From a virus, in IMG/VR virus record IMGVR_UViG_3300025102_000090, positions 1-38,944 of that record: 38,944 bases of DNA. One strand, 5' to 3'. Of the stretch, positions 5,082 to 38,862 are shown in pieces; positions within the stretch are counted from its first letter, which is position 1, and every line of letters starts with the position of its first letter. Position numbers and translations under genes: made by a program. The notes below the pieces were generated by a model that had not been told where the DNA came from, searched no databases, and saw only the letters and a program-made list of their open reading frames with translations.

Positions 5082-6359
5082 TTATTTAGTCCATTTTATA
5101 CGAAGCTTATCAGAAGAGTTACCGGAAACAACTTTTATTTTTTGACCTGCTGGCGTGCTTATACTAGAATTGTCAACACGAGGTTGCATATCTATGTTTT
5201 TTGCTTTCTTAGCAGCATCTTTTATCGCATCGGCACGGCCTTGCTCATAAAAATGATTTGCTATTTTATCAGCATTAGCGCCAACATATAAAGCCTTATG
5301 GTATTCCACTGGCTTTTCAATAACAGTTTTTTCTTTGTCCATGAATAAACTAGCAAAGTTTTTAAAATCACTTTGTGATTCTTTAACTTTTAGAGGATTT
5401 TCAATCTTAAATCTATATTTGTTTTCACCAACCTTAAAATCAAAACCTTTGAATTCATCGTTAAAAACTTTATTTGTTTTTAAAGTAAAATCCTCTCTAA
5501 TTTTTTCTGCTTCTTTTAAAACTTCTTGATTATTATTATAAAGCTCTACGGCATCTTTATACTCTTCAGGAATACCATCTTGCTTTCTTAACTTAAGATC
5601 TGCATAGTATTTTTCTTTTGAATCTGTAAAATGCTTTTGAGCTTCATAAATCTTTTCTTTGAATGCTAATTGTTTTGCTTTAACTTCAGCTTGATCAGCT
5701 GTTTCTTCATCATAAGCAAAATCTTTTTGCATCAAAAAATTTATATCCTCATTATTTAAATGAGGTTTAGTTTGCCTTAAATATTCATATATTAGTGTAG
5801 CATTATCTAGTTTAGAATAGTCTTTATTTAAACTAACATAGTCTTCTAAAGAACCACCCGTTTCTTGCATAAAGCTTACTAACTTTTCAATATCTTCAGG
5901 GTAAATATTTTTTTCTTCTACCGCCTTTTGAACTTCCTCAACAATTTTTTCTTTTTGTTTAGTTTGCTCAACTTGTTTTTCTTCGGTATCTTTAATTAAT
6001 TCTAAAGGAGAATCTACTTCTTGCCCTTGCTCTTTTTCTTTACTTTTATTTTCTTCTTCTTGTTTATTTTCTCCGGCAGGTTCTTTAGACTCTTCTTCGT
6101 TTTTTTCTTGAACCTCTTCGCTAGCTTCGGATCCACCGCGTACAGGTATCTCATCTGTGCTTTGCTCTTGAACGGCATCTTCTTCTTTTTTAGCAGGAGG
6201 GGTGTCTACATTTACACGATATACACCGTCCTCTTGAAATCCATAATTAGAATCGACTTCGCCTTTTTCTATTGCGTCTTGCAATACGTTGGCTTCTTTT
6301 TCTTGTGCTGAAACACTTTCGTTTGTTTCAACAGGTTTTACTTCAACTTGTTCTTCCAT
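5082..6359 (-). CDS. Scaffold-like acidic coiled-coil protein (425 aa)
   Basis: Lies between portal and capsid, the usual place of scaffolding proteins. Residues 1-150 are almost entirely E, K, Q, D, S and P and look disordered (for example EEQVEVKPVETNE and NKQEEENKSKEKEQGQEVD). Residues about 150-330 are predicted long charged helices with heptad-like spacing. A short beta-containing region (FKVGENKYRFKIENP) follows near 310. The C-terminus ends with a basic cluster, KLRIKWTK, which could contact the capsid shell as in other scaffolds. No protease triad is visible. Function is inferred from composition and order; it could instead be a portal-associated head protein. Confidence 0.65.
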   Translation of the reverse strand: MEEQVEVKPVETNESVSAQEKEANVLQDAIEKGEVDSNYGFQEDGVYRVNVDTPPAKKEEDAVQEQSTDEIPVRGGSEASEEVQEKNEEESKEPAGENKQEEENKSKEKEQGQEVDSPLELIKDTEEKQVEQTKQKEKIVEEVQKAVEEKNIYPEDIEKLVSFMQETGGSLEDYVSLNKDYSKLDNATLIYEYLRQTKPHLNNEDINFLMQKDFAYDEETADQAEVKAKQLAFKEKIYEAQKHFTDSKEKYYADLKLRKQDGIPEEYKDAVELYNNNQEVLKEAEKIREDFTLKTNKVFNDEFKGFDFKVGENKYRFKIENPLKVKESQSDFKNFASLFMDKEKTVIEKPVEYHKALYVGANADKIANHFYEQGRADAIKDAAKKAKNIDMQPRVDNSSISTPAGQKIKVVSGNSSDKLRIKWTK

Positions 6360-30520: not shown

Positions 30521-30771
30521 TATAAAATAGCAACTACGTCTTTAAGAGCTATAACTTTGTATAGTTCATCGCTATACTCTATATCGTGGCCTGAAACTTT
30601 ATCGTATAATATTTTTTGCTTTTCTTTTATTACATCTGGTCCAGATGACATTACAATTCCTTTGCGGTAGCGCATTTCTTCATGCTTGTCCGCAAGCTCT
30701 AACCCTCCAGCTGTTTTTTTAATATTTTCAGCTATGTCTTTTATAATTATGTAATTGCCTATTGCTATCAT
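30520..30771 (-). CDS. groES: GroES-type co-chaperonin (83 aa)
   Basis: Short cpn10: an N-terminal strand IGNYIIIKDI, a mobile-loop candidate KKTAGGLELADKHEE (18-32) with GG-LEL in place of the bacterial GG-IVL contact, then YRKGIVMSSG and a C-terminal YKVIALKDVVAIL strand that matches the cpn10 ending. At 83 residues it is about 14 shorter than bacterial GroES, mostly in the roof/loop middle. It would cap the GroEL ring encoded immediately upstream; its ATG overlaps the groEL stop (ATGA). The order groEL-groES is opposite to the usual bacterial operon. Confidence 0.85.
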   Translation of the reverse strand: MIAIGNYIIIKDIAENIKKTAGGLELADKHEEMRYRKGIVMSSGPDVIKEKQKILYDKVSGHDIEYSDELYKVIALKDVVAIL

Positions 30772-32351
30772 TCTTCTCTAACATTTGAAATTACACAATC
30801 AGTGGAAAGGATAGTAGCGGCTACAGATACAGCATTATTTAAAGCTGTCTTTGTAACAAGGAGCGGATCTACAATACCACGATTAATCATGTCTTTAATG
30901 CACCCGCAGGTAACATCCACACCTTCGCCCCATTTGTTTAAACTATATGAAGCAGGTTCTAAACCAGCATTTTTAAGTATTTTGGTAAAAGGCGCGGCTA
31001 AAGCTGATTTTAAAATTTCTAAACCAGTTAACATTCCACCGTTTAATTTCATAACACCTGTATCCATAACAGCTGCATGCGCCAATGCTGATCCACCCCC
31101 GGGTAATATGCCTTCTTTTTTGGCAGCACGAACGGCGTGTATAGCATCATCTACTCTGTCTTGTTTTTCTTTTAGCTCTACTTCAGTATCTGCGCCTACA
31201 AATATTACTGCAACGCCGCCCGATAATAAAGCTAATCGATCATTTAAATGTTTAGTCATTACATGATGATCTTCTTTTTCAAGAACAGTTTTTAAATACT
31301 TAATTCTGTCTTGTACTTCTTTTGGCTTATCATTAACCATAAGTACAGTACCATCTTTATCTGAAAAGGCTTTATCAGCCGACCCTAACATGTCAGGGGT
31401 GATTGCATCAATTGAATCACCCAGCGTTTCATCAAAAACTTTTGCACCGACAAGCAACGCTAGATCCTCTAGTATATCTTTTCTTTTAAGTCCAAAACTT
31501 GGAGGGTCTATAACGTTGACCTTAATGTTGCCCTTTACCTTATTCATGGCTAAAGCCGCTAGCGGTTGCGACTCTAAAGGAGCAACAAGGAGCATTGATC
31601 GATTGGACTGTATCGCATACTCCAAGATGTCTTGAATTTTTCTCATGTTTGGAATATCCGAAACACTTAAGAAAATTAAAGGATTGTCTAGTTCAGTAAT
31701 CTCTTTTTCATTATTAGTATAAAAATGAGGACTTTTGCTTACTGAACCTATTTTTGTGCCTTGTACCGCTTGCACATAAGTTTCACTAGTAGGAGAGCTT
31801 TCCATAGTAACAACCCCATTATCACCTGCTTGATTGAAAGCTTTAGCTATTATATCGCCAAGCTCTACATCATTATTAGCAGATATAGTTGAAACCTGCA
31901 TTAACTTTTCTTTTTCTATAGGTATAGCCTTTTCATCTAGTATTTTTATAATATGATCTTTAAAAAGATCCATACCTTTTCTTATATCTCTAAAAGAATG
32001 CTCATACCCTTTTGCTGAATAGTAATAGTCAATGATGGCTTTTGTGAGTACTATAGAGGTAGTTGTACCATCGCCTGCTACAGCTGCTGTTTTTTGTGCA
32101 GCTTGCTTCATCATAGATACTGCAAGATTTTCTATAGGATCTTGAAGTAATATGCTGTTTGCAACAGTTACACCGTCTTTTGTAACCTGCGGACCTCCGA
32201 AGTCATCTTCTATAATAACAGTTTTACCGCTGGCCCCAAGTGTTGAGCCAACGGCATTTGCTATCTTATTTATTCCATTAATTAACTTTTCTTTTGCCTC
32301 GCCGTCAAAATACATTTTTTTAACAAGCTTAGGCCCACCGAATTGTGCCAT
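30768..32351 (-). CDS. groEL: GroEL-type chaperonin (527 aa)
   Basis: ATP-driven folding chamber subunit. Visible signatures: FGGPQVTKDGVTVA (51-64), GDGTTT (93-98), SANND (157-161), an apical domain with FGLKRKDILEDLALL (286-300), EVELKEKQDRVDDAIHA (390-406) carrying the catalytic Asp equivalent (D402), and PGGG (417-420). D59 and D94 match the nucleotide-site aspartates D52 and D87 of E. coli GroEL. The protein ends at STDCVISNVREE, without the Gly-Gly-Met tail that lines the bacterial cavity, and has 527 rather than about 548 residues. The apical substrate-binding face differs much from bacterial forms. It leads a groEL-groES-winged helix unit among virion genes, so the likely clients are phage structural proteins. 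Confidence 0.95.
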   Translation of the reverse strand: MAQFGGPKLVKKMYFDGEAKEKLINGINKIANAVGSTLGASGKTVIIEDDFGGPQVTKDGVTVANSILLQDPIENLAVSMMKQAAQKTAAVAGDGTTTSIVLTKAIIDYYYSAKGYEHSFRDIRKGMDLFKDHIIKILDEKAIPIEKEKLMQVSTISANNDVELGDIIAKAFNQAGDNGVVTMESSPTSETYVQAVQGTKIGSVSKSPHFYTNNEKEITELDNPLIFLSVSDIPNMRKIQDILEYAIQSNRSMLLVAPLESQPLAALAMNKVKGNIKVNVIDPPSFGLKRKDILEDLALLVGAKVFDETLGDSIDAITPDMLGSADKAFSDKDGTVLMVNDKPKEVQDRIKYLKTVLEKEDHHVMTKHLNDRLALLSGGVAVIFVGADTEVELKEKQDRVDDAIHAVRAAKKEGILPGGGSALAHAAVMDTGVMKLNGGMLTGLEILKSALAAPFTKILKNAGLEPASYSLNKWGEGVDVTCGCIKDMINRGIVDPLLVTKTALNNAVSVAATILSTDCVISNVREE

Positions 32352-35628: not shown

Positions 35629-35868
35629 CTATCTCTTTTTTGCCGCAGCCTCTAAAAAGCCACGCTCATATTCTAATTGTTTCTCTATCTGTAATATCCT
35701 GTCTTCAAGACCCTCTATCACAACTATCTTCTTATCTAACCTTTCATGTACAGTCGTAAGCTCATTCTTAATAGCCGTAAACTCCGCAAATATACCACCT
35801 GCAGTAAATACAGCTAAAGATAAAGATAATACAACAGAAAGGTTGTTCTTAATAAATGTATCTGCCAT
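35629..35868 (-). CDS. First late gene: one-TM coiled-coil protein (79 aa)
   Basis: Membrane segment about 10-30 (SVVLSLSLAVFTAGGIFAEF) followed by a coiled coil to the end (ELTTVHERLDKKIVVIEGLE, then LQIEKQLEYERGFLEAAAKK). The layout resembles an inner-membrane spanin (Rz-type) or a membrane scaffold. It would be the first gene transcribed from the divergent region, so it may be made early in the late phase. No partner lipoprotein (Rz1) was found next to it. Confidence 0.65.
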   Translation of the reverse strand: MADTFIKNNLSVVLSLSLAVFTAGGIFAEFTAIKNELTTVHERLDKKIVVIEGLEDRILQIEKQLEYERGFLEAAAKKR

Positions 35869-35885
35869 AATAATTATAAGTATTT

Positions 35886-35893
35886 CAAATATA
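35886..35893 (-). promoter_or_regulatory. Candidate Bacteroidota -7 box of the late array
   Basis: On the minus strand TATATTTG fits TAnnTTTG, the -7 element known for Bacteroidota promoters. It ends 18 bases before the ATG of the first late gene, leaving a leader of about 10 bases. No clear TTG -33 element at the usual distance, so confidence is low. Confidence 0.35.
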
Positions 35894-35968
35894 GAGGTTT
35901 TGTATTACACATATGTATATGATAACCAAGTACATAGGAAAATCGTATTATAAAGTACCCCCATATTA

Positions 35969-36011
35969 GCAATAAATGTAAGTATTTGTCAATAATATTG
36001 CAATAAATGTA
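35969..36011. repeat. Pair of 12-base direct repeats 31 bases apart
   Basis: GCAATAAATGTA occurs at 35969-35980 and again at 36000-36011. The 31-base start-to-start distance is about three helical turns, so a protein bound at both would sit on the same DNA face. Candidates are operators or iterons. Confidence 0.5.
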
Positions 36012-36308
36012 TACGATCGATGCATATATGTCAGTCATACGTCATTCATTGTCAGATCATTACATTATATATACAATAATGTTGCTATCGTCACATTATT
36101 ATTAATAATTTAACACTTTTATTGTCACATATATATACAAAAGATATAATATGTGTATATATAGTAATAACTACTTAATATTTTATAGTATTTACTTTTA
36201 TATTATTATATATTCAATGTTTATTAATATGTATTAATAATATGATGACAATGTTTAATATGTTTTAAGTTATTGTTTATATATATTATAATATAGTGCA
36301 ATATTATT

Positions 36309-36323
36309 AAAATGTGACATTTT
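36309..36323. promoter_or_regulatory. Perfect palindrome, candidate operator
   Basis: AAAATGT-G-ACATTTT is a 15-base perfect palindrome. The same TGTGAC core occurs inverted at 36090 and 36124 and as TGTGAT at 36373. It is a plausible dimer-binding site for a regulator of the divergent promoters. Confidence 0.45.
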
Positions 36324-36347
36324 ATATATATTTATATAATTATTAAT

Positions 36348-36390
36348 AAAAGTACACAACAAATATTATTATAATGTGATAATATAAGTG
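36348..36390 (+). repeat. 43-base element, copy A
   Basis: Left half AAAAGTACACAACAAA and right half GTGATAATATAAGTG with a 12-base middle. Copies B and C have the same length and spacing; A and C match at 34 of 43 positions by hand count. It lies in noncoding DNA upstream of the first early gene. Confidence 0.75.
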
Positions 36391-36428
36391 TAATTAAAAT
36401 AATAATAATCTTAATAAAAAAATATAAA

Positions 36429-36656
36429 ATGTCTAATTTAAAAAATTTAAAAACTAATCACTATAATTCTAAAATTATAAAAACTAAAAAATTAAAATTA
36501 AATAATAATACTTACTTAGGATTTTTAATAAATGACTTACAAAATATAAAATTAATAAATAACTTAAAAATAGAAAATGTTATAGAATTTAATTTAAAAG
36601 GTTTAACATTTATAAATAAAAATAATATTAAAAAAAGTACACTACAAAGTATTTAA
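36429..36656 (+). CDS. First early small gene (75 aa), unknown
   Basis: MSNLKNLKTNHYNSKIIKTK, then LNNNTYLGFLINDLQNIKLI and FNLKGLTFINKNNI. It is Asn, Lys, Leu and Ile rich, as expected for translated DNA of about 85% AT, but 75 codons without a stop in such DNA are unlikely by chance. The 3' end runs into copy B of the 43-base element (KKSTLQSI). The gene is flanked by copies A and B as direct repeats 285 bases apart, suggesting duplication or mobility. No family recognised. Confidence 0.5.
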   Translation: MSNLKNLKTNHYNSKIIKTKKLKLNNNTYLGFLINDLQNIKLINNLKIENVIEFNLKGLTFINKNNIKKSTLQSI

Positions 36657-36675
36657 TAAAGTGATAATATAAATG
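36633..36675 (+). repeat. 43-base element, copy B
   Basis: AAAAGTACACTACAAA, a 12-base middle and GTGATAATATAAATG; 35 of 43 positions match copy A. It overlaps the last codons and stop of the 75-aa gene and continues into the following gap. The stretch 36657-36791 otherwise holds only low-complexity AT sequence. Confidence 0.75.
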
Positions 36676-36750
36676 TAAATAAAATGTGTGTGTTATAAAA
36701 CTTATTCTCTACACTATAAATAAAGTTGAATAAATGAAATCACTTTAAAT

Positions 36751-36792
36751 AATAATAAAATATAATAATAATAATAATAAAATATAATAATA
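36751..36792. repeat. 20-base direct repeat in low-complexity AT DNA
   Basis: A 20-base AAT-rich sequence at 36751-36770 is repeated exactly at 36773-36792, just before the next start codon. Likely slipped-strand expansion; it may also keep the leader unstructured. Confidence 0.5.
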
Positions 36793-36902
36793 TGAAAAAT
36801 AATAAAATCCACTTCGTAACTTTTGATAACAAATTAAATAAATTAACTTCTAAAGAATTATTAAACTTTTACAATAATTTAAATAAAAATTTAATAAAAT
36901 GA
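36792..36902 (+). CDS. Small early protein (36 aa)
   Basis: MKNNKIHFVTFDNKLNKLTS, then KELLNFYNNLNKNLIK. The stop overlaps the next ATG (ATGA), as for most genes in this arm. Helical C-terminus. No similarity recognised; coding status is supported by the coupled overlap rather than by family. Confidence 0.45.
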   Translation: MKNNKIHFVTFDNKLNKLTSKELLNFYNNLNKNLIK

Positions 36903-37027
36903 AATTAAATAAAATTATACAAAGTTATAAAAATTCAAATATGAATAAAGAATTATTAAGTTATAAACTAAAAAAATATTATAACTTAAATGAAAATGAA
37001 AGATTAATAATTAAAAATAGTTTATAA
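36899..37027 (+). CDS. Small early protein (42 aa)
   Basis: MKLNKIIQSYKNSNMNKELL, then SYKLKKYYNLNENERLIIKN. Basic and helical. It joins the previous gene by ATGA and the next by TAATG. The segment SNMNKELLSYKLKKYYNL might be a DNA- or protein-binding helix pair. Function unknown. Confidence 0.45.
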   Translation: MKLNKIIQSYKNSNMNKELLSYKLKKYYNLNENERLIIKNSL

Positions 37028-37164
37028 TGAATAATGAAATGTTAAAAAGAATTTATGATGAATTAATAAATTTACATGATTTTTATAATGATTTAAAAGA
37101 TGAAGATGGATTAAGAAATGTAAATTATTTATTAAATGAATTAAATAAAAATATAAAAGAATAA
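37027..37164 (+). CDS. Small acidic helical early protein (45 aa)
   Basis: MNNEMLKRIYDELINLHDFY, then NDLKDEDGLRNVNYLLNELN. Amphipathic helices, mildly acidic. Overlaps the preceding stop by one base; four bases then separate it from the next gene. No family recognised. Confidence 0.5.
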   Translation: MNNEMLKRIYDELINLHDFYNDLKDEDGLRNVNYLLNELNKNIKE

Positions 37165-37168
37165 AAAT

Positions 37169-37381
37169 ATGAAAAGATTTTGTTGGAATGTAGAAACTAT
37201 AGATTTTTTTCAACTATTAAAAAATAGTGAAGGAAATGAAATAATGAAAGAAAGTGTAGAAATGTTTGTTTATAATGAATGTGACTTAGAAGATGATGAA
37301 AAATATGAAGATTTAATTGAAGATTTATTATATCAAATTGAAAATACAACTTTAGAAGAAATAGAAAATTTAAAAAAATAA
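37169..37381 (+). CDS. Strongly acidic early protein (70 aa)
   Basis: MKRFCWNVETIDFFQLLKNS followed by a segment with more than 20 Asp/Glu residues (ECDLEDDEKYEDLIEDLL). The charge pattern resembles DNA-mimic proteins that block host restriction or nucleoid proteins. Size and early position fit this, but no specific family motif is seen. Confidence 0.6.
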   Translation: MKRFCWNVETIDFFQLLKNSEGNEIMKESVEMFVYNECDLEDDEKYEDLIEDLLYQIENTTLEEIENLKK

Positions 37382-37384
37382 AAT

Positions 37385-37549
37385 ATGAAAGTAGAATTAA
37401 CTAAAAAAGAAATAGATAGAATTTATTTTGATCTTAAAAATTATGTAAAAACAACATATTATGTTGATAGATTAAATGAATTATCTGAAAATGATAAAGA
37501 AGAATGTAAAATTGAATTAGAATTAATAGAAAAGTTTAGTAAATTATGA
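37385..37549 (+). CDS. Small early protein (54 aa)
   Basis: MKVELTKKEIDRIYFDLKNY, then VKTTYYVDRLNELSENDKEE. Helical, with mixed charge. The stop overlaps the next start by four bases (ATGA). No family recognised. Codon use is less extreme than in the genes at 36.4-37.1 kb. Confidence 0.55.
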   Translation: MKVELTKKEIDRIYFDLKNYVKTTYYVDRLNELSENDKEECKIELELIEKFSKL

Positions 37550-37737
37550 TACAATTAACAAAAAAAATGATTGACAATAAATTAAAACAAATTGCTTTAT
37601 TTGAAGCAAAGTTTGGTGAATGCACAGAGTCAAAAGCAATGAAAAAATATTGCACAAATGAAAAGTACAGACAAAATGTTAAAGCTTTTAACAAAGCAAG
37701 TTGTGAAACAATTAAAAATTATGTAAGATATGTATAG
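37546..37737 (+). CDS. Small basic early protein (63 aa)
   Basis: MIQLTKKMIDNKLKQIALFE, then AKFGECTESKAMKKYCTNEK and ASCETIKNYVRYV. Three Cys (about positions 26, 36 and 53) and many Lys. It overlaps the next gene by eight bases. Unknown function. Confidence 0.6.
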   Translation: MIQLTKKMIDNKLKQIALFEAKFGECTESKAMKKYCTNEKYRQNVKAFNKASCETIKNYVRYV

Positions 37738-38044
37738 AGATGATTTAGTATATGATTTTAACGACGAAATGTGGAACTTATACCATAATGGTACAATTAA
37801 TAATGAAGATGATTTTTGGAATGAAAAAAATACATGGATCGATAACCAAGTAATATACACATATGAATGTAAACAAATATGCGACAAATTAGATTATGAT
37901 ATATTTGAAGAACATGATATTTACGGTAAAGCAAATAACTGGTCTCAAGCTGCATACGCTGCAATATATGATTTGCTTAACGACCACAATGATGCATTAA
38001 CTTATGATGAAATGAAATTACAAGAACAAGAAGCAAATGCATAA
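37730..38044 (+). CDS. Acidic early protein (104 aa)
   Basis: MYRDDLVYDFNDEMWNLYHN, then EDDFWNEKNTWIDNQV and NNWSQAAYAAIYDLLNDHND. Rich in Asp, Glu, Asn, Trp and Tyr, with no Lys-rich patch; aromatic plus acidic composition suggests a protein-protein or DNA-mimic surface. Overlaps both neighbours by eight bases. No family recognised. Confidence 0.65.
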   Translation: MYRDDLVYDFNDEMWNLYHNGTINNEDDFWNEKNTWIDNQVIYTYECKQICDKLDYDIFEEHDIYGKANNWSQAAYAAIYDLLNDHNDALTYDEMKLQEQEANA

Positions 38045-38147
38045 AGTTTGGAGATTATATCTTATAGATAATAAAAGTATAACTGAAATAAGTAAACAAT
38101 TAAATATTACAAAAAATAAATTAAAAACACAATACGGATTAAAATGA
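38037..38147 (+). CDS. Minimal helix-turn-helix protein (36 aa)
   Basis: MHKVWRLYLIDNKSITEISK, then QLNITKNKLKTQYGLK. The stretch SITEISKQLNITKNKLK reads as a helix-turn-helix (ITEIAxxLxIxxxxLK). Very short, so it would act as a dimer or as an auxiliary. Coupled to both neighbours (eight-base and ATGA overlaps). Possibly a regulator of the small-gene array. Confidence 0.5.
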   Translation: MHKVWRLYLIDNKSITEISKQLNITKNKLKTQYGLK

Positions 38148-38341
38148 ATTTAAAAAGAATTAAAGAACTAAGAAATGTAGTGCATGATGCACAAACTAAA
38201 ATGGATCTTATAAGTAAAAGAGTTATGCAAGGTGGTTTATCACTAGACCAACAAATATTGCATCTTGATAATTTTGCTGCAAATCAATCCAGACATATGC
38301 TTAGCAATGAAGAACTATATAAATTATTAAAAAATGAATAA
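38144..38341 (+). CDS. Small helical early protein (65 aa)
   Basis: MNLKRIKELRNVVHDAQTKM, then DLISKRVMQGGLSLDQQILH and NQSRHMLSNEELYKLLKNE. Starts within the previous stop (ATGA) and ends directly against the next ATG. More balanced composition than the genes to its left. No family recognised. Confidence 0.6.
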   Translation: MNLKRIKELRNVVHDAQTKMDLISKRVMQGGLSLDQQILHLDNFAANQSRHMLSNEELYKLLKNE

Positions 38342-38527
38342 ATGAGTGTGACAAAAGAATTAGATGAAATAGCAACAAACGTTGCTGATGTAGTAAATGA
38401 ACATATCAATAATAGTATTTCATGGGCTATTGATGGTACAATATTTGAAGAATTAGAACACGATTATTTTTGTGAAGCAATAGAAAATATTAGAGCATCA
38501 GTAATAAAAAAATTAAAAAATTATTAA
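38342..38527 (+). CDS. Small acidic helical early protein (61 aa)
   Basis: MSVTKELDEIATNVADVVNE, then SWAIDGTIFEELEHDYFCEA and ASVIKKLKNY. Directly follows the previous stop with no gap. Alternating acidic residues and a basic tail. Unknown. Confidence 0.6.
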   Translation: MSVTKELDEIATNVADVVNEHINNSISWAIDGTIFEELEHDYFCEAIENIRASVIKKLKNY

Positions 38528-38534
38528 AATAAAT

Positions 38535-38639
38535 ATGAAAAGTACACAACAAAATAATTCAGCAAGTGATAATATAAGTGAAGAAATTAATAAAATGTTT
38601 CTTGAATTACAAATAAATAAAATAGATTATAATGAATAA
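38535..38639 (+). CDS. Microprotein carrying the 43-base element (34 aa)
   Basis: MKSTQQNNSASDNISEEINK, then MFLELQINKIDYNE. Its first 15 codons are copy C of the 43-base element (38538-38580). In copies A and B the same reading frame contains TAA at codon 9 of the element. It overlaps the next gene by eight bases. Either A and B are decayed gene fragments of this ORF, or the ORF arose from a repeat. Confidence 0.5.
   Translation: MKSTQQNNSASDNISEEINKMFLELQINKIDYNE
38538..38580 (+). repeat. 43-base element, copy C
   Basis: Same left and right halves as copy A, with AGTACAC and GTGATAA starts 25 bases apart as in A and B. Unlike A and B, it lies inside an open reading frame. Confidence 0.75.
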
Positions 38640-38862
38640 AAACGACAAATTACAAAACTACATTGATTTTCAAAACAAGTTTAAAAGAATGAATGATCTT
38701 TTGCCTGAGTGGCAAGTTGAATATTCAATTGAAAAATTTAAGCCGTTAATTGATGATGGCTTTGATGGTAATGATATTATTGAATACTTTACTGTAAAGC
38801 TAATTGACTATATACAAAATAAATATGAACCAACAAAACCAGATGAAGATGGCGGGAAATAA
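38632..38862 (+). CDS. Small early protein (76 aa)
   Basis: MNKNDKLQNYIDFQNKFKRM, then NDLLPEWQVEYSIEKFKPLI and DDGFDGNDIIEYFTVKLIDY. Acidic overall with a C-terminal EPTKPDEDGGK. Eight-base overlap with the microprotein upstream. No family recognised. Confidence 0.65.
   Translation: MNKNDKLQNYIDFQNKFKRMNDLLPEWQVEYSIEKFKPLIDDGFDGNDIIEYFTVKLIDYIQNKYEPTKPDEDGGK

Follow-up and report, generated by a model that had tools for sequence, protein, structure and literature searches.

The window, that is, the whole stretch of 38,944 bases analysed here, is the IMG/VR record of an uncultivated marine bacteriophage, and it comprises a structural operon on the minus strand (terminase, portal, capsid-type protein), an AT-rich divergent region, and a series of small genes on the plus strand. 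G+C content falls from about 36% in the structural half to 14% at 36000–37000, and at 30768–32351 the minus strand encodes a phage GroEL of 527 aa, common to Elemovirus, phi38:1 and MW202828. To judge from its sequence, the phage is related to the Flavobacteriaceae podoviruses, its terminase relatives among the named phages being Elemovirus (44%) and MW202828 (63%), together with Cellulophaga, Tenacibaculum and Maribacter phages. In a 68-kb relative, G001, the plus operon starts at the divergent region and continues through the replication genes, which include ligase, a sigma-like protein, an ERF annealing protein, primase/helicase, thymidylate synthase and ribonucleotide reductase.

Three copies of one element

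Within the small-gene region, the pattern AAAGTACACnACAAA-n12-GTGATAATATAA has exactly three matches, at 36349, 36634 and 38539, all on the plus strand, and neither strand of the window holds a further copy; the expected number is 0, and 100 shuffles contained none (mean 0.00, maximum 0). A sequence-only reading had placed the copies at 36348, 36633 and 38538 with the starts of AGTACAC and GTGATAA exactly 25 bases apart, which we find again, and had counted 34–35 matches out of 43 between pairs, which is correct for A/B (35) and A/C (34) and one short for B/C (36). It had also pointed to shuffled sequence and to related phages as the places where the element might fail: the former contains none, and the latter do carry it.

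The blocks AAAGTACACnACAAA and GTGATAATATAA are identical in copies A, B and C, and as the 12-nt spacer is merely 3–7/12 identical from one copy to another, what is conserved is the pair of blocks plus a short AT-rich tail. Beyond about 45 nt, flanking identity is at background, and since the spacers are likewise unrelated, the copies are not recent duplications of gene fragments, an origin which had been suggested at the outset along with that of a small mobile unit, and which three copies, one of them coding, could bring to mind. The conserved body, termini and target duplications of a mobile element were not found, the spacers are constant in length, the strand bias is strict and the position before genes rigid; moreover, independent lineages share the geometry with different upstream blocks, so that the relatives contradict both origins, which we regard as highly improbable.

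Element A (36349–36390, plus strand) is composed of an upstream block, AGTACAC-A-ACAAA (36351–36363), the 12-nt spacer, and a -10-like GTGATAATATAA in which GATAAT occupies 36378–36383, with a predicted transcription start at about 36390. As had been noted, this copy is noncoding. The ATG of the first gene 3′ of it lies 39 nt downstream of the predicted start; this ORF (36429–36656, plus strand) encodes 75 aa (MSNLKNLKTNHY...) of unknown function, without a Pfam match, and its orthologue follows an element in G001, G002, G003, L114 and L120. The position of element A is kept in G001 and G002, and the first copy of G003 is in the equivalent place, serving a different first gene. A partial inverted repeat, considered as a possible hairpin or dyad operator, is present in copy A alone and not in B or C, and was discarded.

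Element B (36634–36675, plus strand; GATAAT 36663–36668; predicted start about 36675) has the same anatomy, and overlaps the end of a gene, as originally described, because its spacer contains the stop codon (36654–36656) of the 75-aa ORF. This is so in the window and in G003, and in G001 and G002 the gene ends earlier. The nearest ORF after B (36792–36902, plus strand, 36 aa) is reached through a 117-nt leader, and copies equivalent to B in other lineages have a gene 15–41 nt downstream. At 36696–36735, AACTTATTCTCTACACTATAAATAAAGTT could form a hairpin, and similar stretches follow element B in G001 and are found at other places in G003; a terminator or a small RNA is possible.

Element C (38539–38580, plus strand; GATAAT 38568–38573; predicted start about 38580), also with the anatomy of A, lies inside a 34-aa ORF (38535–38639, plus strand; MKSTQQNNSASDNISEEINKMFLELQINKIDYNE), beginning at its second codon, and the putative promoter makes up the first 15 codons, in agreement with the first description of the copy as the start of that ORF. 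At the codon where A and B have TAA in this frame, C has GCA, and B has an additional TAA one codon earlier. Element C is also 52 nt 5′ of the ATG of a 76-aa ORF (38632–38862, plus strand), which is probably its transcribed target.

The element family in related phages

A search of phage records with the element at the DNA level gave no match. The exact pattern is found in three further IMG/VR contigs, with several copies in each, and if 1–2 changes are allowed, there are 5 copies in G001, 6 in G003 and 3 in the G002 fragment, all in the sense of the small-gene operon. In the window and these close relatives, most copies have a gene start 8–52 nt after the predicted transcription start, the exceptions being those before the annealing-protein gene, at about 85 nt, and element B of the window, at 117 nt. 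A de novo repeat search revealed other upstream blocks before the same -10-like box: TAATACGA-n9-GATAAT in G021 and G044, AAATACGTTACAAA-n12-GTGATAATATAA in L114, and AAGTACGTYACAAA-n12-GTGATAATATAA in L120.

On a wider scale, 89 loci were gathered by searching with the phage sigma proteins described below, and elements were called in them by anchoring on GATAAT and demanding a repeated upstream sequence. This produced 264 elements in the sense orientation and 0 in antisense, with a family profile of TTACAAACTAAATACGA-n9-GATAATATAA; nine other hexamers used as anchors yield 0–14 members, as against 300 for GATAAT. The pooled profile reads T(-37)ACA, AAATACGA(-22), nine variable bases, GATAATATAA and then RTG, and the type present in the window has TACA and GATAAT at the same positions and lacks TACGA. 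In 1.44 Mb, a fixed pattern built on this TACGA type matches 292 times in sense and never in antisense; ACGA and GATAAT are 9 nt apart in those 292, and every other length occurs at most 2 times. Of the 58 loci in which 5 kb or more precedes the sigma gene, 55 have at least 2 elements, and the predicted start is a median of 19 nt from an ATG, 93% being within 60 nt, compared with 46% of random positions.

The copies are thus on the same strand, with a -10-like box and an upstream box at fixed spacing, shortly upstream of genes. Orientation, geometry and closeness to genes together point to a promoter much more than to anything else, and this identity of the element is strongly supported. Rigid sites of several blocks are also typical of DNA-binding proteins, and 16-bp palindromes recur in the early region of a relative, MW202828, so that a protein-binding site of another kind (a repressor operator, or a replication or partition site) distributed through the operon was considered; however, an orientation of 264 to 0 without dyad symmetry, a -10-like box, and a fixed short distance before start codons make it very unlikely.

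If the elements are promoters, the same promoter would be used repeatedly along the rightward operon of small and replication genes, with GATAATATAA as its -10 box and AGTACACnACAAA as an upstream recognition block (about -39 to -27) at rigid spacing; transcription would probably begin about 7 nt past GATAAT, and the gene roughly 10–40 nt further on.

A phage sigma factor and the proposed reading of the promoter

In the relatives where the operon is covered, the small-gene operon encodes a protein of the sigma-70 family. The gene is present in G001, in G003 and in all loci of the sigma search. The window ends before the corresponding place, and its phage presumably carries one past that end. 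Membership of the sigma-70 family holds for the 258-aa G001 protein, P0001, and for the corresponding proteins of G003, G021 and G044, regions 2 and 4 being found both by sequence and by fold. The match to PHROG_351 has an E of 7e-10 for P0001 and of 3e-21 for P0003, although single Pfam domains fall just under the curated cut-off. By sequence, P0003 matches sigma factors in the PDB, FliA being the best. With structure models of moderate confidence (pLDDT 67 and 71), the Foldseek matches listed for P0003, from E 3e-6, are all sigma chains or sigma models, and the best 14 for P0001 are mostly sigma. No close relative of P0003 was found in cellular genomes, nor a close homologue of the sigma in a search of 50,697 named phage records. 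On flavophage sigma factors or promoters nothing was found in the literature, the coverage of which was incomplete, and this is therefore weak evidence of novelty.

We propose, with a probability of about 0.75, that the elements are promoters of the early and replication operon, most likely read by the host RNA polymerase with the phage sigma. Recognition by this sigma would be the most likely, because it is encoded in the same operon and because element and sigma are present or absent together. Elemovirus, Callevirus phi38:1, Baltivirus phi19:3 and MW202828 have a related terminase (31–63% identity across the isolates) and, in the case of Elemovirus and MW202828, the same divergent plan as the window, but differ from it in that they give no sigma match by tblastn and have no element in the 42–50 kb read of each. 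Among the sigma loci, L175 has a single element, and L172 and L200 have the sigma and over 5 kb upstream of it, yet zero elements were detected. In MW202828 (L093), at about 44.5–49.9 kb of the record, many perfect 16-bp palindromes, GTGTCGTTAACGACAC, are found between small genes; they are probably a phage repressor operator, and sit where the relatives of the window carry promoter elements.

Distances between promoter blocks follow those between the sigma proteins (r 0.62), and about equally well those between neighbouring primase or ERF genes, used as a control. The correlation would therefore mostly reflect shared ancestry, and co-variation was rejected as proof of recognition.

The alternative, that the host polymerase with a host sigma reads the promoter, possibly with a phage activator, and that the phage sigma serves otherwise, takes support from several features: (i) GATAAT is one position off the general bacterial -10, TATAAT; (ii) an activator could bind at the rigid upstream block; (iii) the operon would have to be expressed before phage sigma is made; and (iv) promoter blocks follow other early genes as well as they follow sigma. 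Nevertheless, flavobacterial sigma-A, from the same presumed host phylum, uses promoters of the form TTG ... TAnnTTTG (PMC9723704), and the element, unlike these, has GATAATATAA, with TTTG absent. Furthermore, the packaging-gene relatives without a sigma match are also without the element in the DNA read, and the element is absent from the strand of the structural operon, all of which leads us to judge a host sigma unlikely. Before the sigma gene itself, a host sigma-A promoter was sought as TAnnTTTG in the 120 nt upstream, and appears in 0 of 86 loci.

The virion RNA polymerase of crAss-like phages was considered because the phage is of Bacteroidota type and has GroEL. It was set aside, as the giant virion-side protein of G001 (2665 aa) is without a DxDxD motif and the terminase relatives are Elemovirus and Cellulophaga phages; among the replication-operon proteins scanned, covering part of the ORFs, none matched a polymerase.

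Promoters of sigma-28 (FliA) have the consensus TAAAGTTT-n11-GCCGATAA, and share with the element a -10 containing GATAA, FliA being in turn the best PDB match mentioned above; the upstream block, spacing and tail are different, and this is a resemblance only. The spacing of the element is more rigid than is usual for sigma-70 promoters. In phiEco32 and 7-11, promoters of about 9 nt (tAATGTAtA) for a phage-encoded sigma factor drive the middle and late (structural) genes (PMC4331800). Those lytic phages encode a divergent sigma-70-like protein and have many copies of its own promoter, detected by pairwise intergenic comparison (PMC4331800); the present phages resemble them in the manner of detection, and would do so in the sigma with its many promoters. 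In contrast, the elements described here are solely on the strand of the sigma and replication operon, consist of two or three blocks at exact spacing, and belong to an uncultivated marine group, so that they are a variant beside the phiEco32 system, not a member of it.

The wider proposal, to which we give somewhat less than even odds, is that of a large uncultivated marine phage group with its own sigma, a promoter of three parts (TTACA at -38, TACGA at -26 and GATAAT at -12) that is unusually rigid in its exact spacing, an upstream half rewritten by lineage (AGTACACnACAAA, TACGTTACAAA, TTACAAACTAAATACGA), a constant -10, and small proteins dictated by the promoter. For uncultivated marine phages, on hundreds of contigs in IMG/VR, this would predict a transcription code along with the sigma that reads it, and the many sigma–promoter pairs, which differ mainly in the upstream block, would constitute a natural data set on joint change of specificity.

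Operon control and probable promoters that are also coding

Host core polymerase bearing a sigma encoded in the operon it drives would imply positive feedback on that operon, and therefore a separate starter promoter would be needed. None was recognised on the plus strand of the divergent region in the window, G001 or G002, and the conserved blocks around 36180–36330 are candidates for a starter promoter or a replication site. In this interval, upstream of A, the window shares the conserved TTTTATAGTATTTAC and TTATAGTGCAATATT...GACATTTT with the three relatives closest to it.

On the opposite strand, the structural operon apparently uses a host-type promoter: TATATTTG (35886–35893, minus strand), a -7 box of host sigma-A type (TAnnTTTG) 18 nt upstream of the ATG at 35868, precedes the first structural gene in the window, G002 and G003, and is the probable promoter of that operon, of a different class from the element. 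In the window, the minus strand at 35886–35920 has a strongly conserved ATATACATATGTGTAATACAAAACCTCTATATTTG before the structural operon, a host-type -7 box with a likely activator site, and G001 has TATATACG instead.

In the small-gene operon, copy C and the annealing-protein copies of the relatives would be promoters that overlap the start of a small gene and are also coding. For the overlap of a promoter with protein-coding sequence, copy C would be a clear-cut example. Its 34-aa gene is conserved in G001 and G003, with a related form in L114–L117; the frame reads KSTQQNN...DNISEEI in the window, G001 and G003, KNTLQ...SDNISEEI in L114–L116, where the promoter block is AAATACGTTAC, and KNTLQ...DNISKEI in L117. 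The codons shift along with the promoter block, which suggests that at copy C the promoter constrains the sequence more strongly than the protein does. The sequence-only reading had listed among its options a regulatory element also read as protein, and was right in this, because the element belongs to a promoter family and copy C is inside a small gene conserved in related phages. A second class of overlap is formed by the copies about 85 nt before the ERF gene, which cover the start of a conserved small ORF of 44–49 aa (M..RDYID...GDGIITYYKNG), at G001 23717, G003 5267–5298 (minus strand), L117 6001, L119 2810 and L120 11161.
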